A stretch of DNA of 64,000 bases from an uncultured Oscillospiraceae bacterium (GTDB taxonomy: Bacteria; Bacillota; Clostridia; Oscillospirales; Ruminococcaceae), in assembly GCA_934462925.1 (NCBI GenBank), contig CAKSIT010000008.1, positions 1 through 64,000 on the forward strand, in the 5' to 3' direction. The notes beneath the pieces were generated by a model. It was not told the DNA's origin. It saw nothing but the letters and a program-made list of their open reading frames with translations, and ran no database searches. Both the position numbers and the translations under genes were made by a program. Shown here one piece after another: positions 2,985 through 34,426 of this stretch (position 1 is its first letter; the number at the start of each line of letters is the position of its first letter).

Positions 2985-3019
2985 GAAAAGCGCACGGTTA
3001 CAGGCGTAAACTGTGCGCT
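2985..3019 (-). terminator. Terminator of the pilus-like operon
   Basis: On the minus strand a hairpin with outer stem GCGCAC/GTGCGC (2990-2995 with 3013-3018) and an inner GTTAC-type stem is followed by TTTTCC. It lies directly downstream of the pilT-like stop and just before the adhesin promoter. Confidence 0.75.
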
Positions 3020-3047: not shown

Positions 3048-4100
3048 CTAGCCCAGTCTTTTTTTCATAATGTCAGGGTTGTAGGCGTAGTTTACGGCGG
3101 TTTCACGCGTTATAGCACCCTCGCGGAACAGCCGCGTGATACAGCTGTCCATCGTCTGCATACCGGGGGTCGTCTGCAGCATGGCGTCTATCTGGTGGGT
3201 CTTTTCCTCGCGGATAAGCGTACGCACGGCGTTGTTCATCGTCATCACCTCAAACGCGGGAATCATTCTCCCGTCAACCGAGGGGAGAAGCTGCTGCGAC
3301 ACTACCGCAGTAAGCACCATTGAAAGCTGCACGCGTATCTGGTGCTGCTGATTTATCGGGAACACGTCTATAATGCGGTCTATCGTGTTCGCAGCGCCAA
3401 GCGTATGCAGCGTTGACAGCACGAGCTGCCCTGTTTCCGCGGCGGTCATTGCAACGCTTATCGTTTCATAGTCGCGCATTTCGCCTACTAGAATAACATC
3501 TGGCGACTGCCGCAGCGCAGCTCGCAGCGCGTCAAGGTAGCTTTCGGTGTCTATGTCTATCTCGCGCTGGCTTACAATGCACTTTTCGTGCTTGTGCAAA
3601 AACTCTATCGGGTCTTCAATCGTGATTATATGCCCCGTGCGCGTATGATTTATGCGGTCTATCATGCACGCAAGCGTTGTGGATTTGCCGCTGCTTGCAA
3701 CGCCCGTTATAAGGATTATGCCGTTCTTGCAGGCGCTGAGTTCCATTACCTCGTTTGGAATGCCGAGCGCCGACGCGTCGGGCAGCTCAAACGGGACGTA
3801 ACGCAGCACCGCAGAGCAGCTGCCGCGCTGCTTGTACACGTTCGCGCGGAAGCGGCCAACGCCCGCTACGGATATGGAGAAGTCAAGCTCGCGCGGGGGG
3901 AGCGTTTTTATGTCAAGCTCCATTCCCGCCAGCACGAACAGCTGGTGTACAAGGTGTTCGGTGTCGTCGCGCGTGAGCGGGGCTTCGCCCAAGGGCAGCA
4001 GCTTTCCGAGCGCCTTGCAGCTCAGCACCGCGCCCGACACTATGAAAATGTCGGAAGCGGCGTTTTCCGCAGCCTTTTTGAGTATGCTAATCATGTCCAT
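3048..4100 (-). CDS. pilT: PilT-type twitching/retraction ATPase
   Basis: A 350-residue cytoplasmic hexameric ATPase of the type II/IV secretion family. It would power pilus retraction or dynamics by ATP hydrolysis at the inner face of the membrane. Residues 1-110 are the N-terminal domain (SDIFI near 16-20). The Walker A motif is GVASSGKST (133-141, usually GPTGSGKST). IEDPIEF follows at about 161-167, then Walker B VILVGEMRD (202-210), and a His box is present (LSTLHTLGAANTIDRI). The length matches PilT rather than the longer PilB/GspE assembly ATPases, because the large N-terminal domain and the zinc tetracysteine motif are absent. It is the last gene of the run and ends at a terminator. 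No PilB is in the window. Confidence 0.9.
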   Translation of the reverse strand: MDMISILKKAAENAASDIFIVSGAVLSCKALGKLLPLGEAPLTRDDTEHLVHQLFVLAGMELDIKTLPPRELDFSISVAGVGRFRANVYKQRGSCSAVLRYVPFELPDASALGIPNEVMELSACKNGIILITGVASSGKSTTLACMIDRINHTRTGHIITIEDPIEFLHKHEKCIVSQREIDIDTESYLDALRAALRQSPDVILVGEMRDYETISVAMTAAETGQLVLSTLHTLGAANTIDRIIDVFPINQQHQIRVQLSMVLTAVVSQQLLPSVDGRMIPAFEVMTMNNAVRTLIREEKTHQIDAMLQTTPGMQTMDSCITRLFREGAITRETAVNYAYNPDIMKKRLG

Positions 4101-4136
4101 AAGGGTATGTCCTTTCGTTTGAGTGTACAGCGGCTG

Positions 4137-4598
4137 TCAGAACGACCCGTCCCACACGCCGAGCGACGCTTCTTCGTCCGCGTCCTGCGCGGTGGTCTGC
4201 CAGCGGTCTATGCGGTAGCGCGCGCCGTCTGGGCTTGCAAAAAACGTAATGCTCACCGACAGGCTCTGCCGCTCGTTTATTTCGCAGGAATACGCCGCGC
4301 GCGCGCCCTCCGCGCAGGGCGTTACCGCAGCCGCGCCGTCCGCTTCAAGCGCAAGCTCCTCCGCAAAAAACGGCGAACCCGCAGCCTGCGCCGCGTACCC
4401 GTCAAGCTGCGCCAGAATCTCCTTTGCGCGCGAATCCGCCGCGTAGAACTGCTGCGTGTATTCCTGCGCCCGCGCGCTAAGCCGCTCGTCGGCGTACGCC
4501 GCCTGAAAGCTCAGCACCGCGAACACCGTAAGGCACAGCAGCGCAAAAATCAGCATTATCGTAACATAGCCCGTACCCATGCCGCGTTTATTGTCCAT
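4137..4598 (-). CDS. Small membrane-anchored pilus-cluster protein
   Basis: A 153-residue protein. The ATG at 4598 is chosen because GGAGGTG lies 7 nt upstream; the frame stays open further upstream but only inside the neighbouring gene. A short basic N-terminus (MDNKRGMGTGYV) precedes one hydrophobic segment (residues 9-32) and then an alpha-helical, charged domain. This is the layout of a pseudopilin or minor pilin, without a clear prepilin-peptidase site. It overlaps the preceding gene by 11 nt, so the two are probably translationally coupled. Similar short proteins accompany GspF-like proteins in Clostridia. Its exact role is unknown. Confidence 0.75.
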   Translation of the reverse strand: MDNKRGMGTGYVTIMLIFALLCLTVFAVLSFQAAYADERLSARAQEYTQQFYAADSRAKEILAQLDGYAAQAAGSPFFAEELALEADGAAAVTPCAEGARAAYSCEINERQSLSVSITFFASPDGARYRIDRWQTTAQDADEEASLGVWDGSF

Positions 4599-5040
4599 CT
4601 GCCGCACCTCCGTTCGGGGCGTATGCCGTGCAGGAAAGCTCGCAAAGCTTGCCCTTTTCGGTTGAAAACACGAGCGTAAGCCGCGAGAGCGTACCCGCAG
4701 GCGAGGGCGTGCGGCTTTCTCTTGCGGTGAGCGTAAGCGCGCCCGCAGGCGAGGGGTTGCACTCGCTGTCAAGCCGCACGGTAAGCCCGTCCGCGCCCTC
4801 CGCCACGGCGCTTTCGCCGAAAACCGCGCACAGAGCCGCGCGGGGGTCTGCGTTTACAGAATAATGCTCCGCCGCAGACTGCGCGCACAGCATTGCGGCT
4901 TCCGCTGCGGCGGCCGTTTTGGCCTTGTTGTCCGCCGCCGCAAAAACGCGCACGATAACCGCGCCCGAAATAAGGAAGAACAGCAGCGCCATCATCATTT
5001 CGATAAAGAAAAGGCGCGCCCCGTTCGCCGTTCTTTTCAT
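4588..5040 (-). CDS. Pseudopilin-like membrane protein
   Basis: A 150-residue protein with a type IV pilin-like N-terminus: a short basic stretch, then LFFIEMMMALLFFLISGA (residues 10-27), which has a conserved Glu at the start of the hydrophobic helix. The Gly-Phe cleavage pair of classical prepilins is not exact (Gly7 followed by Ala). The globular part is Ala/Ser-rich with Cys residues that could form a disulfide. The start overlaps the upstream stop by 4 nt (ATGA). It is probably a minor pilin or pseudopilin of the assembly made with the GspF and PilT proteins. Confidence 0.75.
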   Translation of the reverse strand: MKRTANGARLFFIEMMMALLFFLISGAVIVRVFAAADNKAKTAAAAEAAMLCAQSAAEHYSVNADPRAALCAVFGESAVAEGADGLTVRLDSECNPSPAGALTLTARESRTPSPAGTLSRLTLVFSTEKGKLCELSCTAYAPNGGAADGQ

Positions 5041-5495
5041 TGCCCGCCGCCCCCTCTCACAAGGATTTCAGCGGCGCTCCCGGAGCATTCCACGGTTATT
5101 GTGTACAGCCCGCTGCTTTCGGTTATGCTAAGGCTCTGCGCGTCGGAAATGCGCTCGCCGCCCTGCGTTACGGGGGCGCTGCCCTGCGGCAGGCTGCGCT
5201 CGCGCAGGGCTTCGCCGTCGCAGTAGATAACGCAGGTAACGCCGTTTACAGAGAGCGCCGCGCCGCGCCCGTCGGGGAGAAGCTCCACGCTGTCCGCGCT
5301 TCTTATCCTGTTTGAAACGTATCGCAGCGGCACAGAAGCGCCGAACGCCGCGTCGAACCCCGCGTTTATGCGGCTGTAAACGCTCGCCGCCACAGCCGTC
5401 ATTATCAGCATACACACCGCAAACAGCGCGAACAGCAGCATACTGCCCGAAGCCTGCGTTATGTGCGCGAGCGCCTTTGTCCTGTGCTGCTTCAT
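5037..5495 (-). CDS. DUF4860-like membrane protein
   Basis: A 152-residue protein with one N-terminal membrane helix (residues about 17-38). A sequence of the form VYSRIN...PLRYVSNRIRSADSVELL follows, which I recognise as typical of the DUF4860 family found in Clostridia pilus-like clusters. The C-terminal half is beta-rich (SLSITESSGLYTITVEC) and ends in Gly-Gly-Gly-Gly-Gln. It overlaps both neighbours by 4 nt. It is probably a minor pilin-like subunit; the function of the family is not established. Confidence 0.75.
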   Translation of the reverse strand: MKQHRTKALAHITQASGSMLLFALFAVCMLIMTAVAASVYSRINAGFDAAFGASVPLRYVSNRIRSADSVELLPDGRGAALSVNGVTCVIYCDGEALRERSLPQGSAPVTQGGERISDAQSLSITESSGLYTITVECSGSAAEILVRGGGGQ

Positions 5496-5809
5496 GTGCT
5501 TCCTTTCCCTATAACCGTAACGTTCGGGCGGATATTCGCGCCGACATAGCCGTAATGCACGATAAACCTGTCCTCGTCGTATACCACGCCGTAGCTTTCC
5601 GTGAGCCGTTCAAGGCTTTCTGGGTATTCGCCCTCGATTGAATAGCAGAGCGTTATGCCGTTTTCCACGCTGTCCGCCACCGCCTGCCGCTGCCGCTCGC
5701 GCGACTGCTCCGCCGCGCCCGAAAGCGACAGGATAAGCCACGCAAGCGCCGCCGCGAACACTATTATTGCCGCTATCGGGTATACCGCGCGCAAAGAGCG
5801 TTTTTTCAT
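5492..5809 (-). CDS. Small pilin-like membrane protein
   Basis: A 105-residue protein: basic N-terminus (MKKRSLRAVYP), one membrane helix (residues 11-32), then an amphipathic helix rich in Arg, Gln and Glu, and a short domain containing EGEYPESLERLTESYGV. The last part resembles the region after the helix in GspG-type major pseudopilins (Tyr-Pro-x-x-Leu-x-x-Leu). It overlaps the next gene by 4 nt and follows the GspF-like gene by 19 nt. A pseudopilin role is inferred. Confidence 0.75.
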   Translation of the reverse strand: MKKRSLRAVYPIAAIIVFAAALAWLILSLSGAAEQSRERQRQAVADSVENGITLCYSIEGEYPESLERLTESYGVVYDEDRFIVHYGYVGANIRPNVTVIGKGST

Positions 5810-5828
5810 GCTAATGCTCCTTTCGCCG

Positions 5829-6881
5829 TCAGCCCAGCGCCGACATGATGTCCATGAGCGGCAGCATTACCGTAAGCAGTATAGCGCCGATAAGCGCCGC
5901 AAGTATTATAATTATTGCAGGCTCGATAAATCCCACCGCCGTTGCCGCGGTCTGCTCCGCCTCGTCCGCGCAGCGCTCGCTTATCTTGCGCCACGCCGCC
6001 TCAAACGACCCCGACCCGTACGCTATCACAAGCGAGCGGGAGTAGAGCCTTGGCAGCACGCCGCTTTCGTCAAGCGCGGCGGGGAAGCTCTCGCCCTCAA
6101 GCACGGACTGCCTGCACTTTTCAAGCGCCGCTTTCATTTTCACGTCTGAAACTAGCGGCTGCACGTTTTCCAGTATCTCGTCCGCGGGAATGCCCGCCGC
6201 AGTCATAATGCAAACGGCCTTTGTAAGCTTTGCGAGCGTGAATTTCCGCGCAGCGCCCTTTGTAAGGGGAAACGCGCAGGTGAACCGCGCGAGCGCTTCT
6301 CTCGCCGCGGGTATCTGCGAAAGCGCCGCAACTGCGAGCGCCGCCGCAGTCACCGCAATAAGCACGGCGAGAATGATACCGCCCGTTTTGTACGCTAAGC
6401 TTACCGCGGCGCTCACCGTTTCGCCGACCGAGCTGTCAAACTGCGAGAATATGTCCCCGAACATGGGTATTACCATCACGATAAGCACTATCATAACCAC
6501 CGTCATCATAACAAGCAGCATTATCGGGTGCAGTACCGCAGAGTGCACCGTTCTCGTCATTTCCGCGCGCTCCTCATAGTAGTCAGAAAGCCCGCGCAGC
6601 ACGTCCTCGAGGCTGCCCGTAAGGAAGCCTATGCGCGCCATGCTCACCGCGTACGCGGGGAAGCGGCGGCTTTTTTCCATAGCCTCGTGCAGGGGCGTTC
6701 CGCAGCCTATATCTTCGGCGAGCTGCGCGCACAGCCCGCTTAAGTCGCCCGCGTCCTGCGCTATAAGCTCAAGCCCGTCCGCAAGCTGCATTCCCGAACC
6801 CAGCATCATTGCAAGCTGCTCGCACAGGTACGCCGTTTCGTCGGGGGTGAGGAGCTTTGCCTTTTTTTCCTTTTGAGCCAT
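5829..6881 (-). CDS. GspF/PilC-type membrane platform protein
   Basis: A 350-residue inner-membrane protein of the type II secretion F family, the platform that couples the ATPase to pilin assembly. The ATG at 6881 follows GAGGT; a longer open frame starts inside the neighbouring gene and is not favoured. There are two T2SSF domains, each a cytoplasmic helical bundle followed by membrane segments. The first (about 15-140) carries LAMMLGSGMQLADGLE, the second (about 215-340) carries LTKAVCIMTAAGIPADEILENV. Three long hydrophobic segments are near 135-160, 182-210 and 325-345. It is slightly shorter than the typical 400 residues because the N-terminus is short. Confidence 0.9.
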   Translation of the reverse strand: MAQKEKKAKLLTPDETAYLCEQLAMMLGSGMQLADGLELIAQDAGDLSGLCAQLAEDIGCGTPLHEAMEKSRRFPAYAVSMARIGFLTGSLEDVLRGLSDYYEERAEMTRTVHSAVLHPIMLLVMMTVVMIVLIVMVIPMFGDIFSQFDSSVGETVSAAVSLAYKTGGIILAVLIAVTAAALAVAALSQIPAAREALARFTCAFPLTKGAARKFTLAKLTKAVCIMTAAGIPADEILENVQPLVSDVKMKAALEKCRQSVLEGESFPAALDESGVLPRLYSRSLVIAYGSGSFEAAWRKISERCADEAEQTAATAVGFIEPAIIIILAALIGAILLTVMLPLMDIMSALG

Positions 6882-6894
6882 TTTTATACCTCGC

Positions 6895-8094
6895 TCAGTA
6901 GTAGTATATCGCGGAGTAATTGCCCGCGTTGGAGATGTAGTCCGATATTTTGTCCTTGTCCGCAGCGCTTGCGTAAAACGTTGCGTCAACTATGTTGTAG
7001 CCCTTGCTTTTAAGCAGCAGCTGCGGGGTTATCCAGCCCGTTTCCTCGGTGTAGACCTCGTTCCACGCGTGGTATATGTCCGTTGCGGCGTAGCCCACCA
7101 CAAGCCGCGTGGGAACGCCCTGCGCGCGCATCATGGCGCACAGCAGGCTCGCGTAGTCAAAGCATATGCCCTTTTTCGCGGAAAGCGTTCTGTCAGGGTC
7201 GGGGCAGTAGCCGCTGCGCACCGTCTTTGCAAGCTCCTTGTCGTAGGTCACGTTGTCCGTAAGCCACGTGAACACCGCCGCCAGCTTTTCCACCGTGCCG
7301 CTTTTGCCCGCGCAGAGTTCCGCGGACTTTGCCACTGCCGCGGAGTTCTTGTCGAACGCTGCGTAATGGTTCGGCAGCAGGAACATCTCCGTGTCGCTGT
7401 TTACCGTAAGCTTTACGGTTTTGTCGATAAGCAGGGAGTACATCTTGCCCTCTGCGTGTTCGTAAAGCTGCAGCGTATAGCTGCCGCTGCCGCAGGAAAG
7501 CGGGAAATAATCGGCTTTCCCGAGCGCTATGTCGTGGTCGTATGTCTGCCCGCCGCATATCATGCGCAGCTTTGCGGAGTCGCTGCCGCCCGTGTATGTA
7601 ACGCTTATGTAGCCCTCTGCGGCGTTTGAGTAGTCTATGCAGCCGTTATCGCAGGTGAAAACGTCAGCGCCCGGCGAGGACACCGTTCTCACCTCGGGGA
7701 TAACCACGGGCGCGGGGGGCGTGGTCGTGGCTGCGGGGGTCGTGGCAGTCGCTGTAGTCGCGGAAGTCGCGGTCGTCAGCGTTGTCGCTGCGGGCGCGTC
7801 CGCGCTTTCCGCGGCAGGCTCGTTAAAGCTTTCCGTGGGCGGCTCGGCGCTCTCCTCCGCGCTTTCGGCAGGCTCTGTTGTCGGTGCAGGCTCGGGCGTG
7901 CTTTGCGCGGCTGCGGAGCTGTCCGCCGCGCTTGTCGTTACCTCTGTGGCAGGCGCTATGTCCTGCGGGGGAGAGGATTCTGCGGAAGCTGCGGGGGTAA
8001 CGGGCGCGGTGCTTTCGGGGGCTGCGCCCGTATCGCACGCGGTAAGCACCGCGCACAGCGAAAGCGCCGCCGCAAGCAGTTTTATTCGTCGCAT
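6895..8094 (-). CDS. Transglutaminase-like lipoprotein
   Basis: A 399-residue exported lipoprotein. The signal peptide ends in a lipobox (LTAC, Cys20). Residues 21-135 are a Thr/Ala/Ser/Pro/Glu-rich low-complexity linker. Residues 140-240 form a beta-sandwich-like part, and residues 255-399 form a transglutaminase/cysteine-protease fold. The triad is visible: Cys in KKGICFDYASLL, His in IYHAWNEVY and Asp in NIVDATFYA. It could cross-link or cleave surface proteins or peptidoglycan; the substrate is unknown. It sits between the CapA-fusion gene and the GspF-like gene in the same operon, which suggests action on the pilus-like structure or its envelope site. Confidence 0.85.
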   Translation of the reverse strand: MRRIKLLAAALSLCAVLTACDTGAAPESTAPVTPAASAESSPPQDIAPATEVTTSAADSSAAAQSTPEPAPTTEPAESAEESAEPPTESFNEPAAESADAPAATTLTTATSATTATATTPAATTTPPAPVVIPEVRTVSSPGADVFTCDNGCIDYSNAAEGYISVTYTGGSDSAKLRMICGGQTYDHDIALGKADYFPLSCGSGSYTLQLYEHAEGKMYSLLIDKTVKLTVNSDTEMFLLPNHYAAFDKNSAAVAKSAELCAGKSGTVEKLAAVFTWLTDNVTYDKELAKTVRSGYCPDPDRTLSAKKGICFDYASLLCAMMRAQGVPTRLVVGYAATDIYHAWNEVYTEETGWITPQLLLKSKGYNIVDATFYASAADKDKISDYISNAGNYSAIYYY

Positions 8095-8122
8095 AGCGCG
8101 CCCCCTTTCCGTTGGTGTAATG

Positions 8123-11100
8123 TCAGCTGCGGCTCAGTCTGAGCGAGCGCAGCAGCAGATAGTTTTCGTCCACGGCGCTGAACACCTGCCTGTCAGTCCC
8201 CGCGATGATTTCGCTTATGTAACGTCCCGCCGTGCGGTAGAACTCCTCCTCATAATGCACGATGTGCGCGCCGCCGAAAACGAAGCTGTCCGACGAGTAG
8301 AAGTGCTTTGAGATATCTATTACGTAGCACCCCGTCACCGCCGCAAAGCGCTCCTCGCACAGCGAGATGAACTTCTTCTTAAGCTCCGCCATTCCGTCGT
8401 CCTCAAGCGGGGCGAGCCTGTTGTCAAGCGTTATGTACTCGCTTTTCGGCTCTGCCTTTATGAGTATTATGTTGCCGCCGTATCTTTCGCTTATAACGCC
8501 CGCAAAGCGCGTCATGGCGTCAAAGCAGTATTTCATTCCGCGCCGCTCGAACAGGTAGGACAGCCTGCACGCGCTTTTTATGTCCTTGTAGAAGTCCATG
8601 CGCATAACCGTGTCGTCTATCTCGAACAGCCCGCCGCTGTACTCCGCCATTTTGCTTATAAGGTCGAAGAAATCGAGCAGAATCCAGCGCGCCTTTGAGC
8701 TTTCAATGTCGCGTATGCCGCTGCGGGAAAGTGCGTTTTCAAGCGTCCTTTTGCGCCATGCGTTGCCGCTGAACGCCTCCGTCCCCTCGGGCAGCTGCGC
8801 GTTTACGGGCGGCTCGAACGCAAGCAGCGCGGGCTGCTTGAATATGTACTTGCCGATAAACGCGTCGCTCATGTTGGCGGACTCGCGCGATACGCAGCTG
8901 CCCCATATGTCGAGCGTTTTAAGCCCCTGCGACTGAATGTAGCGCTTCTGCTGCGGTTTTCCGCGCAGCAGGAACATAAGCTCAACGCTCCTGTCGTTTA
9001 CCGCCGCGCCCGTTTCCTTTGCAAGAAGTCTCATCATCGTGCGCAGTATCACGTACTTCCCCTTAAACGCGCTTTCGTAAAAGTCGTACCCGCGCGACAA
9101 ATCGCCGTCGAGCAGCGCCTGTATCATCTGCGCGGTTTGCACAAGCTCGCGCGCTTCGGGTTCTCCCGCGAAAAACTCGCCCACGCAGGAAAGCTGCGCG
9201 CTCCCCGCGCGTTTTAGCCGTATAAGCTGCTCCGCGTGCTTTGCAGCGAACTCCGCCGAGGTAGAGGCGATTATCCTGTCCGCAGCGCAGTCCATGTCGA
9301 GCAGCCAGCTCTGGAACGAGCGCGCGGTCATGCTCGCGTAGTATTTCACCACGCGCGAGAACCATATCTCCTCCGACGGCGCGCTAATGCAGGTAACGCC
9401 CGCGTCCGATGAAACGGCGAGCGCCGCCCTGTACGCGTCAAGGCTGTAGTGCGGCTCAAAGCGCCCCTCGGCGTCCTCCGCAAGGGGGAAGTAGAAGCGC
9501 GACAGCTCCACCACGGCGGGGCGCGCAATGTCGATGAAGAAGTCCTCCATTTCGCGCATTAGCCTGTTGGCGCGGGTCTTAGGAGAAGCCGCGCGAAGCT
9601 CCGCGCCCTTTGCGGTGTGCGCGCCGTACTCCGTGCGGAAAAGGATTATCCGCGCGCCCGAAGCCGCGAGTATCTCGGCGTAGCGGCGCAGCGCAGGCTT
9701 CCAGAACTCCTCGCCGAACGGCGGCGCTACCCGCGTGAGCTGCTCCTTATGCTGCGCAAAGAACGCCGAGCGGCGCAGCACGCGCCTTGCGGTAAAGCAG
9801 CAGGGCGGCTCAGAGCCGTTTATCATGTAGCACGCCGAGGCCGCCGCCGTGCAGAAGTCCACCGCGATAATGTCGGGCGCGGTGCGCTTTATGTAGTCGG
9901 GCAGGTCCTTTGCAATGTCCAGTTTAAGGCGCTCGCTGCACCCCTCGTCGGGTGAGAAGCCGCCCACGCCCGACCCGAGCGACACCTGCGACAGCCGCAT
10001 TGCGGTCTTGTCAACGCGAAACGCGCTTCCTGCGGAGAAAATGTCCCCCAGTATCGGCGAGCCGCTCAGCAGCACGCGCGGGCGGCGGTTTTCGCAGCTT
10101 ATGTTCCTGCCGAGCCTGCGCGCGGTAAGGGCGGCGCATTCGCGGCTTTCCTCGCTGAACGGCTTGCGGCAGGGATAGGCGCGCACGCCGTCTTCTGCGG
10201 GCAGGCAGATGCACGGCGTGTAGGTAAGAAGCGCGTTAACGCCCGTCTGCGTTCTGTAAAGCTCGGCGCGCAAAAGTGCGCTGCCGCGGTATTCCGCAGG
10301 CGCTTCCGGCGAGGTGATAAGCCGCCCGAGCGAGTACGCGCAGGGGACTTTTCTGCCGTCGGGCGTTTCGATAAGGCTTACGCGCTGCACCGCCTGCGGG
10401 TGCGTGCCTATGATAAGGTCAGCGCCCGCCTGCGCCATAAAGCGCGCTTCCTCAGCCTGCTTTTTGGTGACGAGCGGGGAAGCCGCGCTGCCCCAGTGCG
10501 GCAGCGCTATTATGTATTCCGCGCCCAGACCGTGCGCCCTGTTCACAAGCTCCACGAAAAATTCGCGGCTGTAAACGGCGCAGGCGTTGGCGGCGGCTAT
10601 GTCGTCTTTTGGTACGGCGGTCATGGTAACGGCGATAAACGCAATGTTCATGCCCTTTACGGAGATAACCACGGGGTCGTCGCCGAGCGTGCCGAGGTTG
10701 TGCATTCCGCGCCCGCGTATGCCTGCGGCGGTGTCCTGTATGCCCTTAAAGCCCGCATCACAGCTGTGGCAGGCCGCCGTAACCACAACGCCGAAGCCCG
10801 CTGCGGAAAGCGCGTTGAGCAGGGTAGAGGGCGCGTTCGCGTTTTCGCCGCCGCGCTCGAGCAGCGGGCTTTCCGCAGCGTATGGCGCGCCGTCGCAGCA
10901 GCACGCTTCAAGCGCGCCAACGGCAAGGTCCGCGCCTGTTAAAAGCCCCTTTACGGCGCTGAACGCCCCGTGAAAGTCGCGCGAACGCACGCGCCTTTGC
11001 AGCGCCGCACCCGCGGTTATTCCGCCCGTAAACAAAAGCGCCGCGTGCGCCCCGCAGGAAACCTCCCTGCGCCCGACCTCCACAGCCGTGCGAAAGGTCT

Positions 11101-11587
11101 GCGAGTCCTCCTTAGAGGTGATGACAACGCCCGCCCTGCCGCGCGAGAGCGCCTTTACAACGCCGCTTGCGCTTACGGATACGACAGAGGGCGCGTCCGC
11201 TGCGAAGCGCACCTCGGGCGTTCTGCCGCGGCATTCCCACTTAAGCTGCGCGCTTTGCCCCACCTCAAGGCAGAGCGTCTCCTGCGCGCGCAGTCCCTCG
11301 CTTGCGGGTATGGCGCGAATGCGCTCGCTTTCAGCTCCCGCGGCTTCCTTTTGGTTTGCGGTATGCAGCGCGCGCACGGTCAGCAGGTACTCCCGCCCGT
11401 TTGCAAGCCCTTTAAGCGTAAGGCGGCAGGCTGCGGTGCTGCGCGTGCGTATCACCTTTTCGGGCGAATCCGCCGCCCGCAGGAACACGCGGTATTTTTC
11501 CGCGCCCTGCACGGCGTTCCAGCGAAGCCTTATGCACCTGTCCGCGCCAACTGCCGCAAAGCCCGACGGCGCTTTCAACTGTTCCAT
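8123..11587 (-). CDS. Fn3 - Big2 - CapA-like - DUF6270 - DUF6270 fusion protein
   Basis: A 1154-residue protein with an unusual domain order. Residues 1-95 are fibronectin type III-like (ApsGF...IRLRWNAVQGAEKYRV). Residues 100-172 are a bacterial Ig-like Big2 domain (VVSVSASGVVKALSRGRAGV). Residues 180-430 are a CapA/PgsA-like metallophosphatase fold, with altered metal motifs: FTGGITAG where family members have GD, HSCDAG, HWGSAAS and GTHPQAV. Residues 500-760 (RPRVLLSGSPILGDIF) and 890-1140 (TLDIWGSCVSRES, then FGGAHIVHY) are two DUF6270/SGNH-like domains; only the second has the family's GSCVSR signature. No signal peptide is visible, which is odd for Fn3, Big2 and CapA domains. It may act on cell-surface polymer synthesis; function unknown. 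Confidence 0.8.
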   Translation of the reverse strand: MEQLKAPSGFAAVGADRCIRLRWNAVQGAEKYRVFLRAADSPEKVIRTRSTAACRLTLKGLANGREYLLTVRALHTANQKEAAGAESERIRAIPASEGLRAQETLCLEVGQSAQLKWECRGRTPEVRFAADAPSVVSVSASGVVKALSRGRAGVVITSKEDSQTFRTAVEVGRREVSCGAHAALLFTGGITAGAALQRRVRSRDFHGAFSAVKGLLTGADLAVGALEACCCDGAPYAAESPLLERGGENANAPSTLLNALSAAGFGVVVTAACHSCDAGFKGIQDTAAGIRGRGMHNLGTLGDDPVVISVKGMNIAFIAVTMTAVPKDDIAAANACAVYSREFFVELVNRAHGLGAEYIIALPHWGSAASPLVTKKQAEEARFMAQAGADLIIGTHPQAVQRVSLIETPDGRKVPCAYSLGRLITSPEAPAEYRGSALLRAELYRTQTGVNALLTYTPCICLPAEDGVRAYPCRKPFSEESRECAALTARRLGRNISCENRRPRVLLSGSPILGDIFSAGSAFRVDKTAMRLSQVSLGSGVGGFSPDEGCSERLKLDIAKDLPDYIKRTAPDIIAVDFCTAAASACYMINGSEPPCCFTARRVLRRSAFFAQHKEQLTRVAPPFGEEFWKPALRRYAEILAASGARIILFRTEYGAHTAKGAELRAASPKTRANRLMREMEDFFIDIARPAVVELSRFYFPLAEDAEGRFEPHYSLDAYRAALAVSSDAGVTCISAPSEEIWFSRVVKYYASMTARSFQSWLLDMDCAADRIIASTSAEFAAKHAEQLIRLKRAGSAQLSCVGEFFAGEPEARELVQTAQMIQALLDGDLSRGYDFYESAFKGKYVILRTMMRLLAKETGAAVNDRSVELMFLLRGKPQQKRYIQSQGLKTLDIWGSCVSRESANMSDAFIGKYIFKQPALLAFEPPVNAQLPEGTEAFSGNAWRKRTLENALSRSGIRDIESSKARWILLDFFDLISKMAEYSGGLFEIDDTVMRMDFYKDIKSACRLSYLFERRGMKYCFDAMTRFAGVISERYGGNIILIKAEPKSEYITLDNRLAPLEDDGMAELKKKFISLCEERFAAVTGCYVIDISKHFYSSDSFVFGGAHIVHYEEEFYRTAGRYISEIIAGTDRQVFSAVDENYLLLRSLRLSRS

Positions 11588-11598
11588 GAGAATGCCCC

Positions 11599-13326
11599 CT
11601 ACTTAAGCCCCTGCACGGCGCTTTCGCCAAGCTCCGCGCGCAGCCTTTCAAGCTTTTCAAAATTCCTGTAAAACGAGCAGTACGCCGCACAGAAATGCCC
11701 GATATCGTCTATCCTTATGCGAAAATCTCCCTGCCGCACGACTATAGCGCCCACGCACGCCGCTGGCTCTTTAAAGTACATTGCAAGCTCGGGGTAGGCG
11801 TAGCCGTCGAGCATACGCCACACGCGGCGGTATATCGTGCGGATAAACAGCCCCTCGTCGAAGTCCGTAAGATAGCTGCATTCAAGCCGCTGCTCCTTAA
11901 TGCGCGCGTACAGCTCGAACGTTACGCACAGCAGCTCGAGCGAGGTGTGCGCAATGGTTTCGCGGCTGTAAAGGCTTTTAAGCGAAGCCGCGGCGTTTTT
12001 CAGCCCGAAGCTTAAGTACTTATCCTCGGGCAGGTGCTTTGAAAGCTCGTTTACCGCGTAAGCCACCCAATGGTCGCGGTACTGCGTGTAGTCCTCGCGG
12101 ATAAACCTGTCCACCGCCTGTTTCGCAGCGTCAAGCCAGCGCTGCTCGCGCGTGAGCGCGTATAATCGGCACAGCCCGAACACCGCCTCGCCGTCGTAGT
12201 ACACCGTGCGGAACTTGTCGCGCGGGGCGAGGGTGGGGTAGCGCAGCACGTGAAAGAAGCTGCCGTCGCGCTCGTCGAACAGCTCGAGAATGCCGTTGCC
12301 AAGCTCCACCGCCTGCTGTCTGTAGCGGTAGTCGCCCGTAAGCGCCATAAGCTCGGTAAGCGCGACTATGGCAATGCCGCTGCCGCCGAGCTTTACCTCG
12401 TTCGCGGTAGGGTCGGGCAAAAATGCGGTGTTCTCGCGCGCGGGGTTTGGCGCGTATTTGCAAAAAAGCAGGCTTACCATGTACTCAGCCGCCTTTTTCG
12501 CCTGCATAAGCGTAAATTTGTCGCCCGTAACGCGCGCGGCGCATACAAGACTCCATAGCGCGGAGGCGTGGCGCACGGTGTTATAGCCCGCAATAGCGTT
12601 GCCCGAAAGCGGGAAAAAGCCGTACTCGAACTTTCCGTCAAGCCCCTCCATCATAGCAAGAAAGTCTGAGGACGTAGAGATAACGCGCTTTACGTCGTCT
12701 GCGCTTACCTGCCCGCACACGCGCCGCCCGCAGCACGCGCCGTCGGTATAGAGCGTATGCACGGCGCACTTTTCGTCGCAGAAAACGCTCATGCAGTCAA
12801 AAAGCACCACCCGCTCGGGCAGCACGGAAAGCGTGGGCAGCGAACACGCCGCGAGATACCTGTTCACGCTTGTAAGCTCAAGGCGCTTTTTCTTGTAGGT
12901 GTAAACGCCGTAACAGTTAGCCTCCGCCTCGGTCACGGCGCGCTTCATTTCACCGTCAAAGCAAACGCCGCGGCGGAAAAAGCGCAGCTTGCCGTTTTCA
13001 AGCCGCTCGTTCACGTCTGCGAGCTGCGCGTATTCGCTGCGGCGCACAACGCCCGCCTTTACCCAAAGCGGCGCGTATCCGTTCGCAGCTGTGCGCTCCG
13101 CCTGCGCAAGAGCGCCGCGCCACGCCGCTTCAAGGCTGCCCGCTGTGCAGCGGAACACCCTCGCGCGCGAGTGAATGTCGCATATCTCGGCGAACGCCGT
13201 GTACAGCCCCTGCGTGCAAAGCGCGGGGGAAAGCTCGGCTTCAAGCGCCGTAAAGCTCCTGCCCGAAAGCAGCGCCGCTTCAAGCGCAGCCGCCTTTTGC
13301 GCAAACAGTCCTGCGTTATCGTTCAT
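11599..13326 (-). CDS. (alpha/alpha)6-toroid protein, six-hairpin glycosidase-like
   Basis: A 575-residue protein. The ATG at 13326 follows AGGGGAG and overlaps the HPt gene stop (ATGA). Residues 240-460 contain the repeated helix pairs of six-hairpin enzymes (glucuronyl C5-epimerase, cellobiose epimerase or GH88/105 types): YNTVRHASALWSL, GGSGIAIVALTEL, YYDGEAVFGLCRLY and WVAYAVNEL. These are the usual toroid motifs, spaced by about 50 residues. The first 230 residues are not recognised. No signal peptide is seen. It may hydrolyse or epimerise a surface polysaccharide together with the neighbouring CapA fusion. The catalytic residues cannot be assigned. Confidence 0.75.
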   Translation of the reverse strand: MNDNAGLFAQKAAALEAALLSGRSFTALEAELSPALCTQGLYTAFAEICDIHSRARVFRCTAGSLEAAWRGALAQAERTAANGYAPLWVKAGVVRRSEYAQLADVNERLENGKLRFFRRGVCFDGEMKRAVTEAEANCYGVYTYKKKRLELTSVNRYLAACSLPTLSVLPERVVLFDCMSVFCDEKCAVHTLYTDGACCGRRVCGQVSADDVKRVISTSSDFLAMMEGLDGKFEYGFFPLSGNAIAGYNTVRHASALWSLVCAARVTGDKFTLMQAKKAAEYMVSLLFCKYAPNPARENTAFLPDPTANEVKLGGSGIAIVALTELMALTGDYRYRQQAVELGNGILELFDERDGSFFHVLRYPTLAPRDKFRTVYYDGEAVFGLCRLYALTREQRWLDAAKQAVDRFIREDYTQYRDHWVAYAVNELSKHLPEDKYLSFGLKNAAASLKSLYSRETIAHTSLELLCVTFELYARIKEQRLECSYLTDFDEGLFIRTIYRRVWRMLDGYAYPELAMYFKEPAACVGAIVVRQGDFRIRIDDIGHFCAAYCSFYRNFEKLERLRAELGESAVQGLK

Positions 13327-13781
13327 GTCGAACTCCCCTCTGCGTATGGCAGGCGCTTTATCTGCGCCGCCGTTTTCCTGTACAGCCTTATGGTGCGCGC
13401 GGCAGCCCTGCGCACGTCTGCGGCGCTGCTGCGCTCTGCGGCGTGCTGCAGACGCGCGGAGAATTCCGCAAGCCTTACAAGCCCCACCGTGCGCGACATG
13501 GATTTGAGCGAATGCGCGCATATCACCGTGCCGCGCATATCGCCCGCGCGCACAAGGCGGGCAAGCTCCTCGTCCTTGCGAGAGAACGCGTATTCGCGCA
13601 GCATTTCAAGCAGAAAGCTCCTGCTGTCCACGCAGAAGCGCAGCCCCTGCGCCGCGTCAAGCCCGCTTACGGCGGCGTTAAGCGCCTGTATCTCCTGCGC
13701 GGACATAACGTCGTTTGCGGTATTCCGCCCGCTGAGCGTTTTAAGCGCCCGCCTGCGGTTAAGAAAAGCCAAAAGATTCAT
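13323..13781 (-). CDS. Stand-alone HPt phosphotransfer protein
   Basis: A 152-residue cytoplasmic protein. The HPt helix with the phospho-accepting His is ICAHSLKSMSRTVGLVRLAEFSARLQHAAE, from about residue 88, with the family pattern HxLKxxxxxxG. The preceding region (ALNAAVSGLDAAQGLRFCVDSRSFLLEMLREY) is typical of HPt domains. HPt proteins pass phosphate between receiver domains. The nearest candidates are the LytTR regulator and hybrid kinase transcribed divergently 0.7 kb away, and the receiver/hybrid kinase pair at 34018-36703. Its place in the pilus-like operon suggests that output is phosphorelay-controlled. Confidence 0.85.
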   Translation of the reverse strand: MNLLAFLNRRRALKTLSGRNTANDVMSAQEIQALNAAVSGLDAAQGLRFCVDSRSFLLEMLREYAFSRKDEELARLVRAGDMRGTVICAHSLKSMSRTVGLVRLAEFSARLQHAAERSSAADVRRAAARTIRLYRKTAAQIKRLPYAEGSST

Positions 13782-13803
13782 TGCAAGCCCTCTGAAAAAG
13801 CGC

Positions 13804-14286
13804 TCAGAACGTGAGCCTCATCTGATACCACACCGCGCCGCCGTGGGTGGAGGCGCTGACGCCCTCGCTCACAAAGCCGAATTTTGAGTAATAATGCAGC
13901 AGCCTTTCCTTGCAGGTAAGCACAAGCCCCTTGCGCCCCTGCGCCTTAGCGTCGCTTATGGCGCGCCCGATAAGCTGCCCCGCGTAGCCGTGCTTACGGT
14001 ACTCGGGCAGCGTGTTCACGCCGAAAATCATCTGCCACGCGCCGTTTTCGTCGTGCAGCCACGCGTTTTCGTACATAACGTCCGCAAGGTCCGCAGCGTC
14101 GGTCGTCATGCCGTCTGCAAAGGCAATAAGCCTGTCGCCGTCGAACATCAGCCAGAAGTGGTTCGCGTAGTTTCTTAAGCGCTGCGCAAGCTCCTCGCGC
14201 GGGGCTGCTTCCTCTGCGGGGAAGCAGGCGCTTTCAACCTGCGCTATGCTGTCGATGTCTGTTGTTTTCGCCGTTCTTATCGTCAT
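13804..14286 (-). CDS. GNAT-family N-acetyltransferase
   Basis: A 160-residue acetyl-CoA-dependent acetyltransferase. Motif A is VNTLPEYRKHGYAGQLIGRAI (about residues 90-110), followed by VLTCKERLLHYYSKFGF near the C-terminus, both typical of GNAT proteins. The ATG at 14286 is preferred over the in-frame GTG at 14295, because AAGGTGG overlaps the GTG and is correctly spaced for the ATG. It is the first gene behind a minus-strand promoter, with 22 nt before the HPt gene, so it probably leads the pilus-like operon. Substrate unknown. Confidence 0.85.
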   Translation of the reverse strand: MTIRTAKTTDIDSIAQVESACFPAEEAAPREELAQRLRNYANHFWLMFDGDRLIAFADGMTTDAADLADVMYENAWLHDENGAWQMIFGVNTLPEYRKHGYAGQLIGRAISDAKAQGRKGLVLTCKERLLHYYSKFGFVSEGVSASTHGGAVWYQMRLTF

Positions 14287-14341: not shown

Positions 14342-14370
14342 ATTATAGCACATAATTCCCCGTGTGTAAA
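14342..14370 (-). promoter_or_regulatory. Sigma-A promoter of the GNAT/HPt/pilus-like operon
   Basis: TTTACA (14365-14370), 17 bp and TATAAT (14342-14347) on the minus strand. It is back to back with the promoter of the LytTR/kinase operon, only 43 bp away, so the regulator could control both. Confidence 0.8.
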
Positions 14371-14474: not shown

Positions 14475-15191
14475 ATGCTTGTATTTGTTTGCGACGATTC
14501 AAAGGCGGACAGAATGCGCCTTTTGCACAATATAAAGACCTATTCGCAGGAAAATGAGTGCGATTTTACGGTAGAATGCTTCGAGAGCGCCGACAAGCTG
14601 CTCGGGGCGTTTTCCGCGCGCGCGCAGAAGCCCGACATCATCTTCCTCGACATATTCATGAGCGGCACAGACGGCATGGAGGCTGCGGAAAAGCTAATAG
14701 CGCTCGGCATGGAAAACGGGCTGGTGTTCACCACCTCGTCGGAGCAGCACGCGCTTAAGGCGTTCAGCATAGGCGCGGACGGGTATCTTCACAAGCCCTA
14801 CACCCACGAGGACTTTGTGCGCGCCATGAAGCGCTTTCAGCCGCTTATCGCGCAGTCGCGCAGGTTTATTACGGTGATTTACCGCCGCGAGGAAAAGCGC
14901 ATAAACCTGAGTTCGGTGCTGTATGTGGAAACCGCGCGGCACAACTCGGTGTTCCACACTACCTCGGGCGACGTCATAGCGTCAGAGCCGCTCGGCAGCC
15001 TTATGGACAGGCTGTGCGGCGAGTACGGGCTGTACCCCTGCGGGCGCAGCTACGCTGTAAATCTCGGGGCGGTAACGGCGTTCACCGCGGACGGAATGCT
15101 TATCTTTTCGGACGGCAGCAGCGTAAGCGTCCCCATAAGGCTGCGGCGCGAGCTTGCGCAGAAGCTTGTAGGAATCGATATGCACGCGTAA
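14475..15191 (+). CDS. LytTR-family response regulator
   Basis: A 238-residue response regulator. Residues 1-125 are a receiver domain: acidic pocket CDDSK, phospho-acceptor Asp in DIIFLDIFM at about residue 59, and HKPYTHEDF near the end. Residues 135-235 are a LytTR DNA-binding domain (KRINLSSVLYVETARHNSVFHTTSG, ... RSYAVNLGAVTAF). Regulators of this AgrA/LytR kind often control surface, adhesion or competence genes. The kinase gene begins 12 nt downstream. The gene starts next to the divergent promoter of the pilus-like operon, which is a plausible target. Confidence 0.92.
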   Translation: MLVFVCDDSKADRMRLLHNIKTYSQENECDFTVECFESADKLLGAFSARAQKPDIIFLDIFMSGTDGMEAAEKLIALGMENGLVFTTSSEQHALKAFSIGADGYLHKPYTHEDFVRAMKRFQPLIAQSRRFITVIYRREEKRINLSSVLYVETARHNSVFHTTSGDVIASEPLGSLMDRLCGEYGLYPCGRSYAVNLGAVTAFTADGMLIFSDGSSVSVPIRLRRELAQKLVGIDMHA

Positions 15192-15203
15192 GGGGGCGGC
15201 GAG

Positions 15204-17648
15204 ATGTTTTATGTGTTCTGCGGGGTACACGTTGCGGTGCTTGCGGCGCTTATCGTGCTTTTTGTGCTGTGCGTTGCGCGTGCAAATTCCCCTGCAAAAA
15301 GCGCTTTTCTGATGTTCTGCTACTCGCTTATCGTGCTTATACTCGGTATGCTGCTTGAAACGCTTGAATCAAGCACCACGCGCGAGGCGATAATGGCGCT
15401 TAAAATGCAATACACCGCGCTTTATCCGTTTTCGCTGTCAATGCTTGCGTTCTGCTCGCTTATGGGCAGGTTTAAGGTAAGCAAGGCGGTGTGGTGGGTG
15501 CTTGGCATTGTAGAGGGCGCTTCGCTGCTCGCAATAATTACCACAGGCACTACGCCCGAAAGCAACCACGGGCTGTTCTACTCAAGCATGGAGCTTGTGG
15601 AGGATGGCGCGTTCTCGCGCATAAACGTGGGCAAAGGGCCGTTCTGGTTCGTGACCTACATTACGATTGTGCTGCTGGCGGTGTACATACTCGTTTCGCT
15701 GATTATATCCTGCGCGAGGTGCGTAAACGTCGTTCAGCGGCGCAGGATACGGTACGTAATAGCAGGCATAGGCTGCCTGCTGTTTGAGTTCATTCTTAAA
15801 TGGTTCGGCGTTTTCGGAAGCTACAACCCGTTCGCGTTTGCGGCGCTGCTTATGGTGTGCTTTTTCTACCTGTCGCTTATACGCTACGGGTATTTCAACA
15901 CGGCCGCGGCAGCGCCCGCAAACGCCCTTGACCGCGGCGTTGAGGGCGTTGTAATGCTCGACGAGCGCGGAACGCTTCTATACATAAACGAAACGGCGAA
16001 GGCTATAATCCCCGAAATTACCAAAATGAAGAACGCGGGCGAGCATACCCTTATACAGCGCGCGCTGAACGAGGGCGAGATTTCCGCGAGCCTTGGCGGC
16101 AGCGTTTACGACGTGCGCTCAGAGCGCGTTGAGGACTACGCCGCGCTCGGCGGGTACATGGTGTGGTTCGTTAATATGACGAAATATCAGGAGCAGCTCG
16201 ACAAGATAAACGCCGCCAACCGCGCCAAAAGCGAGTTCCTTGCGCGCATGAGCCACGAGATTCGCACGCCCATAAACACGATACTCGGCCTTAACGAAGT
16301 TATCCGCACCGAAACGCAGCGCGACGATATCCGCGAGTATTCCGAGGACATAGCGGACGCGGGAAGCACGCTCATGGCGCTTATAAACGACATTCTCGAC
16401 ATCTCAAAGGCGGAGGCGGGTACGTTCGCGCTCTCGCCAAAGCCCTACGGCACAATGGCGCTTTTCGGGGAGATACGCCTTATGGCGGCGCAGAAAACGC
16501 ACGAAAAGGGACTGGAGCTTATCTTCGACATAAGCCCGCGCATACCCGAGCGGCTTACGGGCGACAGCGTGCGCATAAAGCAGATGGTGCTGAATCTTCT
16601 CACCAACGCCGCCAAGTACACCGAGCGCGGCGTGGTACGGCTGAGCGCCGAAATGCGGCGGGACGACCTCGTGATTTCCGTGTCCGACACGGGTATCGGC
16701 ATTAAGCCGGAGGACATAAAGGTTATTTTCGAGAACTTCGGCAGAGTGCCATCGAACAAGGATGGGACGGGACTCGGGCTTACCATTACAAAGCAGCTTG
16801 CGCAGGCTATGGGGGGAACGCTCACCGTAGAAAGCGAATACGGCAGGGGCAGCGTGTTTACGCTTACGCTGCCGCAAAAGCCCGCGGGAACGTCCGCCGC
16901 CGCGCCGAACGCCGCAGCGGAGAGCTGCTTTTCCTGCCCGTGGGCGCAGATACTCGCCGTGGACGACAACCGCTACAACAGGCTTGTCGCTGAAAAGCTG
17001 CTCGGCCGCACGGGCGCGCGCATATCCATTGCCGAAAGCGGCGCGGAAATGCTCGAGCTGTGCGCAAAGCAGCGCTACGACCTTATCCTGCTTGATATCA
17101 TGATGCCTTATATGGACGGAACGCAGGCGCTTGAAAAGCTGCGCGGCTCTAACGGGCGGAACGCGCGCACGCCCGTTGTGGCGCTCACCGCCGACGCCGT
17201 TGTGGGCGTGCGGGAAACCTACCTTGCAATGGGCTTCGACGACTACCTTTCAAAGCCCGTGCTGCCCGAGGAGCTTGACGCGCTGCTGCGCAGGCGGCTG
17301 TCGCGCACGTCTGCGGCGATTGACGAGGAGGCGGGGCTTTCCTATTCCGACAACGACAGGGAGTTTTATATGCAGCTTCTCGGCGTGTTCTGCGAGGAGC
17401 GCGGGCAGACAGAAGCCGCGCTCGGCGGGGCGCTTTCCGCGGGCGACATGGCGCTTTACAGAACGCTTGTGCATGGGCTTAAGAACAACGCGCGCGGCAT
17501 AGGCGCGATGTCCTGCGCGGACGTCTGCCTTGAAGCGGAGCAGGCGGCTGCTGCGGGACAGCTCGACGAGGAGCTTCACGCGCGGGTTGTTGAAGCGCTG
17601 CGCGAGGCGGCACGCGCCGCGGAGAGGCTTTGCGGACAGAACGCGTAA
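15204..17648 (+). CDS. Hybrid sensor histidine kinase (7TM-PAS-HisKA-HATPase-REC-HPt)
   Basis: An 814-residue membrane sensor. Residues 1-230 hold seven hydrophobic segments (7TM histidine-kinase sensor type). Residues 240-330 are a PAS-like region (EGVVMLDERGTLLYINETA). The HisKA box is MSHEIRTPIN with His351. The ATPase domain has N (LLTNAAKYT), G1 (DTGIGI) and G2 (GTGLGLTI) boxes. The receiver domain at about 582-695 has Asp631 in LILLDIMMP, and an HPt domain at about 710-814 has His757 (LVHGLKNNARG). It carries all modules of a multistep phosphorelay and is in an operon with the LytTR regulator. The signal is unknown. Confidence 0.93.
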   Translation: MFYVFCGVHVAVLAALIVLFVLCVARANSPAKSAFLMFCYSLIVLILGMLLETLESSTTREAIMALKMQYTALYPFSLSMLAFCSLMGRFKVSKAVWWVLGIVEGASLLAIITTGTTPESNHGLFYSSMELVEDGAFSRINVGKGPFWFVTYITIVLLAVYILVSLIISCARCVNVVQRRRIRYVIAGIGCLLFEFILKWFGVFGSYNPFAFAALLMVCFFYLSLIRYGYFNTAAAAPANALDRGVEGVVMLDERGTLLYINETAKAIIPEITKMKNAGEHTLIQRALNEGEISASLGGSVYDVRSERVEDYAALGGYMVWFVNMTKYQEQLDKINAANRAKSEFLARMSHEIRTPINTILGLNEVIRTETQRDDIREYSEDIADAGSTLMALINDILDISKAEAGTFALSPKPYGTMALFGEIRLMAAQKTHEKGLELIFDISPRIPERLTGDSVRIKQMVLNLLTNAAKYTERGVVRLSAEMRRDDLVISVSDTGIGIKPEDIKVIFENFGRVPSNKDGTGLGLTITKQLAQAMGGTLTVESEYGRGSVFTLTLPQKPAGTSAAAPNAAAESCFSCPWAQILAVDDNRYNRLVAEKLLGRTGARISIAESGAEMLELCAKQRYDLILLDIMMPYMDGTQALEKLRGSNGRNARTPVVALTADAVVGVRETYLAMGFDDYLSKPVLPEELDALLRRRLSRTSAAIDEEAGLSYSDNDREFYMQLLGVFCEERGQTEAALGGALSAGDMALYRTLVHGLKNNARGIGAMSCADVCLEAEQAAAAGQLDEELHARVVEALREAARAAERLCGQNA

Positions 17649-34017: not shown

Positions 34018-34401
34018 ATGAAAAACAGAATCATGGTCGTTGACGACGACCTTATCACTATAAAAATGTGCGAGTTTATCCTCTCGCAGAACGACTATGA
34101 GGTGGTTTCCATGCCGTCGGGGGTGTACTGCCTTGACTACCTGCGCAACAGCGCAAATCCCCCTGTGGACCTTATTCTGCTCGACATTGAAATGCCGCTG
34201 CTCAACGGCTATAACACGCTTTCCAGCATACGTCAGGGTGAGTCCACAAAGCACATACCCGTGATGTTCCTGACGGCCTCCGCAACGCAGGAAACGGTGC
34301 GCGAGGCTATAAGGCTCGGGGTGAACTCCTACCTTAAAAAACCGTTTTTGCCGCAGGAGCTGCTTGCAAAGGTGCAGGATATGCTCTCGCCGAAAAAATA
34401 A
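34018..34401 (+). CDS. Single-domain response regulator (CheY-like)
   Basis: A 127-residue receiver protein with no output domain. Acidic pair VVDDD (8-12), phospho-acceptor Asp in LILLDIEMP (about 60), switch Thr in MFLTASA and Lys in SYLKKPF. Such proteins act by protein contact or as intermediates of a phosphorelay. A hybrid kinase gene starts 25 nt downstream. The upstream context gives no clue to the signal. Confidence 0.93.
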   Translation: MKNRIMVVDDDLITIKMCEFILSQNDYEVVSMPSGVYCLDYLRNSANPPVDLILLDIEMPLLNGYNTLSSIRQGESTKHIPVMFLTASATQETVREAIRLGVNSYLKKPFLPQELLAKVQDMLSPKK

Positions 34402-34426
34402 AACAAAGCCGCATTGTAAGGACACT

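Follow-up and report, generated by a model that had tools for sequence, protein, structure and literature searches.

We analyzed a stretch of 64,000 nucleotides from an uncultured Oscillospiraceae bacterium (contig CAKSIT010000008.1, positions 1 to 64,000; hereafter the window) and found that a gene run on its minus strand contains a conserved unit of seven genes. Sequence comparisons and predicted models lead us to favor, by a modest measure, the view that this unit is a type IV filament-class machine, likely one whose pilins stay unprocessed and whose only motor is of the PilT family. The seven genes, all on the minus strand and in order of transcription, encode a transglutaminase-family protein (6895-8094; Transglut_core E 1.3e-24, passing the Pfam cut-off), a GspF/PilC-type membrane platform (5829-6881; T2SSF 145 bits, passing the Pfam cut-off), p105, a small subunit whose AlphaFold model has a predicted pilin fold (5492-5809), DUF4860, a GspJ-like predicted pseudopilin that barely passes its Pfam cut-off (5037-5495; 25.2 vs 25), p150, a putative pilin-like subunit that keeps the Glu+5 residue and has no Pfam match (4588-5040), p154, a putative PilX/GspK-like subunit (4137-4598; PilX_N E 0.0018, below the cut-off), and a PilT-family ATPase (3048-4100; TIGR01420 402.2 bits vs a cut-off of 319.1, with T2SSE also passing). 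The initial annotation had recognized a module resembling pilus or type II secretion assembly in the run, and the finding of the motor, the platform and the small pilin-like proteins bears this out.

The core is conserved across many species. We scanned 84,980 species, one genome each, with the window's PilT and kept the best 80 of 584 confirmed relatives as PilT-selected loci (L001-L080). Profile searches detected pilT and p154 in all 80 loci, p150 in 78, DUF4860 in 77, p105 in 76, gspF in 75 and the transglutaminase gene in 71; these counts are in-sample because the profiles were built from the PilT-selected loci, and those for five of the seven genes took in the window's sequence too. Fifty-nine loci reach upstream of pilT by 5.5 kb or more; 58 of these contain all seven genes, and 53 keep the same order. 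The median gaps between core genes are -4 to 17.5 nucleotides. The six exceptions in order are L019, L034, L044, L065, L066 and L069, and the transglutaminase gene is moved or reversed in five of them. According to the record titles, the PilT-selected loci span Lachnospiraceae, Oscillospiraceae, Caproiciproducens, Acetobacterium, Anaerovorax and Massilimicrobiota. The linkage of the core genes holds across Clostridia and in one Erysipelotrichaceae genome, and named hosts of the core include Coprococcus comes and Acetobacterium tundrae.

A second sample was chosen without PilT. The p105 profile was run on 293 genomes of the class, with at most 16 candidates scored per genome; a 95% completeness filter was requested, and completeness values were absent from the output. 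The profile matched 37 of the 293 genomes; strong matches (E 1e-20 or better) came from 31 of these and made up 34 loci. By coordinates, 26 of these 34 loci have a T2SSE ATPase no more than 3 kb from p105. In 20 of the 34, a transglutaminase (E 1.2e-91 or better, at most seven candidates scored per genome) sits about 2.5 kb or less from p105, and in G227 a weaker one is located about 3 kb downstream. With 71 of 80 PilT-selected and 20 of 34 p105-selected loci, the transglutaminase belongs with the pilus module, as had been proposed. Weaker relatives (E 1e-53 to 1e-77) sit away from p105 and in genomes lacking p105, and therefore the family is not confined to the cluster. Cys311, His342 and Asp370, which we take to be catalytic in the transglutaminase family, are invariant in 67/67 rows, and the N-terminus carries an LTAC lipobox, read from the sequence, suggesting that this protein is a probable lipoprotein.

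The sequences of the pilin-like subunits suggest that processing was lost in the window's group. All four small core proteins carry N-terminal hydrophobic stretches. The AlphaFold model of p105 is pilin-like, with pilins at the top of its VIA rows, and that of DUF4860 matches GspJ-family structures, again with pilins at the top. These two fold calls rest on the VIA rows because Foldseek gave no match at E 0.001 or better for either model; a search of PDB sequences with the p105 profile returned no relative and one chance-level row (E 0.64). We compared cleavage motifs between group A, which consists of 13 p105-selected loci (L101-L113) without this kind of upstream transglutaminase, and group B, the window's group, with a motif test set of the window, L001-L080 and L114-L120 (L114 was counted here although it has no transglutaminase). 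With a motif pattern of our own, which misses sites beyond residue 75 of the start chosen by the script, the p150 G/A motif was found in 13/13 loci of group A vs 17/68 of group B (38/68 when S or T is allowed at -1), the DUF4860 motif in 11/13 vs 0/72, and the p105 motif in 0/62 of group B and 0/75 over both sets. Glu14 of p150 (Glu+5) is invariant in 52/52 rows, and the residue at -1 in the window's p150, read from the sequence, is Arg. Gly10 of p154 is invariant in 58/58 aligned rows, and this protein has no Glu+5 motif. The motor itself is well kept; Walker A/B and an AIRNLIRE-like motif are retained in the group B rows of PilT (78 rows). In an ATPase tree of 68 rows, group B forms one clade (100/100) and groups A and B together form one clade (100/96), which lies inside the PilT-family rows when the tree is midpoint-rooted for drawing only. 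The rows with canonical motifs branch outside group B, and L102 and L113 adjoin it (94/91). This branching agrees with a loss of processing in group B.

The distribution of prepilin peptidase points in the same direction. T2SSE and Peptidase_A24 profiles were run on sets of 17, 30 and 50 genomes, the last set being capped so that 13 further loci fell outside it. Every group B genome with a further T2SSE ATPase had a peptidase, 79/79 in total (17/17, 15/15 and 47/47). The core PilT was the sole T2SSE ATPase in six group B genomes, called at E 1e-20 for G284, G207 and G136 and at E 1e-15 for G347, G348 and G349; in the latter three, scoring covered 31 of the 35 or 36 ATPase candidates of the first look. 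Peptidase_A24 was not detected in five of these six (G284, G207, G136, G347 and G348), and the association between peptidase and second ATPase gives a Fisher p of 1.8e-7 with kinship ignored. Four of the six genomes sit in the ATPase tree, in three clades. With a peptidase profile of 13 rows (E up to 1), the five genomes gave no match and the peptidase was found in G349, G160, G346 and G353; PF01478 at E up to 10 gave no match in G284, G207 and G136. G136 is nearly one contig (C1 has 2,969,292 bases, and the genome is listed as 3.0 Mb), and G284 has a 1.29-Mb contig. The initial annotation had pointed to the lack of a PilB-type ATPase and a prepilin peptidase in the window; indeed, neither family matched in the cluster, and the core persists in genomes with neither detected. 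We infer the absence of processing because the motifs are lost and because there are genomes without a detected peptidase. We also observed that in four close relatives (L081-L084) an additional PilT copy lies outside the core and outside the pilB-pilT locus.

Several observations weigh against this reading. The core PilT of G349 is the sole T2SSE ATPase of its genome, yet a peptidase is present, and the assemblies of G207, G347 and G348 are fragmented. The peptidase-negative G207 has a G/A-xxxxE cleavage site in p150. This site occurs in the 17 of 68 loci given above while Glu+5 is kept in all rows, as if processing of p150 were still possible in some species. The loci without a T2SSE ATPase within 3 kb of p105 are those of G038, G160, G191, G283 and G307, where the ATPase is located away from the cluster, of G291:C225, at a contig end, and of G243 and G112. 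G243 has GspF and four pilin-like genes (L106) without adjacent pilT, and G112 has GspF and four pilin-like genes (L114) with no T2SSE match at E 1e-20. The transglutaminase gene is absent from L044 and from upstream of the core in the 13 loci of group A.

The alternative that survives best, although we consider it unlikely, is a minimal type IV filament of the usual, Com-like kind, which would borrow PilB and peptidase from other loci while the core PilT serves only in retraction. All 12 tested close relatives of the window (G001-G004, G310-G317) have a PilB-type ATPase and a peptidase elsewhere; therefore, supply in trans is possible for the window's species, and it is for this species that the claim of unprocessed pilins is weakest. 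Borrowing would also agree with the Glu+5 kept by p150 and with PMC6668835, in which the peptidase is treated as recruitable from other systems. However, the five genomes that keep the core with neither another T2SSE ATPase nor a detected peptidase argue against a borrowing filament, as do p105 and DUF4860 of group B, which have no cleavage motif. A considerably less probable explanation is that the missing peptidase is an artefact of incomplete genomes and that motif loss marks atypical but processed pilins. Absence calls can indeed mislead, as G279 and G077 show; these close kin in group A have no detected peptidase although their p150 (and DUF4860) sites are canonical. Likewise, the peptidase of G186 (group A) first seemed absent, but pieces of it later turned up at contig ends. 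Nevertheless, among the group B genomes tested the peptidase was missing only where there was no other T2SSE ATPase (5/6 vs 0/79), a pattern that random gaps would not give, and G136, which is nearly one contig, also argues against such an artefact.

For a machine of this kind, run by one PilT-family motor on uncleaved pilins, we can propose a mechanism. The ancestor would have had a PilT-type motor and normal prepilin processing, and in the derived lineage the subunits would stay as uncleaved N-in anchors. A PilT hexamer might turn or rock GspF, so that a short pseudopilus would be pushed and pulled through the wall, with p105 as the putative shaft and p150, DUF4860 and p154 as the putative tip. 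The surface transglutaminase may then join or trim the material that the filament delivers to the wall. More tentatively, and with somewhat less than even confidence, we suggest that the single PilT-type motor serves both directions on uncleaved pilins and that the transglutaminase binds the filament or its cargo covalently to the wall. PMC9815625 reports that PilT promotes both extension and retraction of the MSHA pilus of V. cholerae.

Motor, platform and predicted fold would place the core in the type IV filament superfamily. A T2SSE-type ATPase together with a GspF-type platform is one criterion of this superfamily, and the core has both, whereas a test for class III signal peptides failed on p105 and DUF4860 in the group B set. 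In PMC10191384, cleavage of this peptide is described as needed before type 4 pilin assembly, and prepilin peptidase and extension ATPase are counted among the ancestral parts. The Com pilus of monoderms (ComGA-GG, ComC), which PMC10790768 presents as the simplest known type IV filament with eight components, resembles the core in having one small ATPase, one platform and several small pilins in one operon. It differs in that the ATPase of the core is of the PilT family (its ComGA score is 128.6 bits vs a cut-off of 300), the platform falls below the ComGB cut-off (103.8 vs 240), the cluster has no prepilin peptidase, p105 has no cleavage motif, and a transglutaminase gene is added. Type IVa pili share with the core a PilT-family ATPase above the TIGR01420 cut-off, a GspF/PilC platform and predicted pilin-like folds. 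On the other hand, the ATPase of the cluster does not pass the PilB equivalog cut-off, none of the cluster's proteins matched a PilB, PilMNO or peptidase family, and separate pilB-type loci coexist in many genomes that bear the core. GspK of the type II secretion pseudopilus (GspG-K) lacks Glu+5, and so does p154; the DUF4860 model matches structures of the GspJ family. Unlike type II secretion systems, the cluster has no GspE-type ATPase or secretin among its proteins (the GspE score is 117.1 vs 630.25), and its platform misses the GspF equivalog cut-off (168.9 vs 424).

The whole run (3048-14286, minus strand) is an unbroken series of 11 open reading frames with a largest gap of 36 nucleotides. 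The initial annotation had described ten genes on one minus strand; its unbroken run, short gaps and ATGA overlaps were confirmed, whereas its gene count was one too low. Overlaps of 4 nucleotides (ATGA) join HPt to toroid, p105 to DUF4860 and DUF4860 to p150, and the p150/p154 overlap is 11 nucleotides. The promoter that had been placed at 14342-14370 corresponds to a promoter-like site (14370-14342, minus; TTTACA-17-TATAAT, an 11/12 match with TG before the -10), and promoter-like sites are not in excess across the region (7 found vs 5.7 +/- 2.0 in shuffles). For the terminator, which had been placed at 2985-3019, we found a terminator-like hairpin with a short U-run at about 3021-2987 (minus; -15.7 kcal/mol, z -3.5, 0/200 shuffles as stable). 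It is missing from the list of the pattern scan because its loop is too long for that scan.

Four genes precede the core on the same strand. The first encodes a GNAT acetyltransferase (13804-14286; Acetyltransf_9 E 5.8e-12, passing the Pfam cut-off) and the second an HPt protein (13323-13781; Hpt 31.9 bits vs a cut-off of 24.6). They are followed by a putative six-hairpin toroid protein (11599-13326) and a CapA-DUF6270 protein of 1154 amino acids with fn3, Big_2, CapA (PGA_cap) and DUF6270 domains (8123-11587). In the latter, PGA_cap and DUF6270 pass the Pfam cut-offs and fn3 falls below, and reading by eye showed no signal peptide. Most of the earlier family calls are thus supported by Pfam or NCBIfam; the toroid has only weak matches to GH127 and lyase families, all sub-cut-off, the best being GH127 at E 0.0014.

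The distribution of these upstream genes differs from that of the core. CapA-DUF6270 adjoins the core in 11 of the 80 PilT-selected loci, all nearest relatives of the window, and the toroid in 8 of the 80, all close relatives; a ninth match, in L066, is on the opposite strand. HPt and GNAT had no match in any of the 80 loci. Many of these loci end near the toroid, so we also searched about 5 to 13 kb of additional upstream sequence in seven close relatives at E up to 1. HPt, GNAT and the kinase gave no match there, and the regulator gave a single match at chance level (E 0.98). In four of these seven, a protein of 683-691 amino acids, U32-peptidase-like by eye, is encoded directly upstream of the toroid. 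A search with a CapA profile of 245 genomes of the order of G001, with at most two candidates scored per genome, found CapA-DUF6270 relatives outside the window's group, four full-length (G554, G502, G452 and G524) and one partial (G562); the one in G502 carries one in-frame stop. No core gene was found around these five by tblastn at 1e-3. Their neighbors, named by eye, include U32-peptidase-like genes in L135 and L137 and sigma-factor-like genes in L133 and L136. G452 has a toroid-CapA pair without any pilus gene (L138, 5178-10672), and a second CapA-DUF6270 beside a U32-peptidase-like gene (L135) was also seen in this genome.

Because CapA-DUF6270 and toroid both occur without the core in other genomes, they look like a separate module that came to sit upstream of the core in one clade, and HPt and GNAT look like local additions. 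The initial annotation had CapA, toroid and transglutaminase make or process a surface polymer around the pilus, with HPt as the link to a phosphorelay, and had named in advance homologues in unrelated contexts as the observation that would speak against it. Such contexts were found for CapA and toroid, HPt had no match beside the core, and with 11, 8 and 0 of 80 loci the view that these three belong to the pilus module as a polymer-making set fails by that yardstick. That CapA, toroid, transglutaminase and pilus act together as a surface-polymer system under a phosphorelay is thus very improbable, since CapA-DUF6270 and toroid are found without the core and HPt and GNAT in 0/80 loci and 0/7 longer upstream stretches, despite the single run with short gaps in the window, the 11 loci in which CapA adjoins the core and the hybrid kinase and LytTR regulator that lie divergently upstream. 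We also rejected the whole 11-gene run as one system, as HPt and GNAT had no match in related loci and CapA and toroid occur without the core, and a CapA-based polymer pathway, for which there was no support beyond gene neighborhood.

Other genes surround the core in the window and its relatives. The divergent pair (14475-17648, plus strand) consists of a LytTR response regulator and a seven-transmembrane hybrid histidine kinase with a sub-cut-off C-terminal Hpt; a second hybrid kinase at 34364-36703 also ends in an HPt-like stretch, as judged by eye. The orphan HPt may serve either hybrid kinase. On the other side, pilT is followed by a gene for a surface-like protein with long Ser-Asp repeats, which runs off the window edge (3-2861, minus), is preceded by a perfect promoter-like site (2982-2954) and matches no Pfam family at 0.01. 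In 16 of the 18 loci nearest to the window's (L001-L018), pilT is followed by genes for large, mostly repeat-bearing proteins that fall into two clusters. In L034, L065 and L069, the transglutaminase gene sits between p154 and pilT, and upstream are two shared genes, one of which carries GH18 and SH3 domains in L034. L023, L028 and L043 share two or three genes directly upstream of the transglutaminase; the last of these belongs to one cluster, and its L023 member is a Peptidase_S26 signal peptidase, which might serve these species as an alternative enzyme for processing.

In the open-licence literature, we found no paper containing DUF4860 and, in the searches made, no title or abstract describing the core cluster, which does not show that the cluster is undescribed. 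If a widespread relative of type IV filaments does lack peptidase and extension ATPase in some genomes, the purpose of pilin processing could be put to the test, as could the ability of a PilT-type motor to extend a filament by itself. Named hosts such as Coprococcus comes and Acetobacterium tundrae make the question accessible to bench work.

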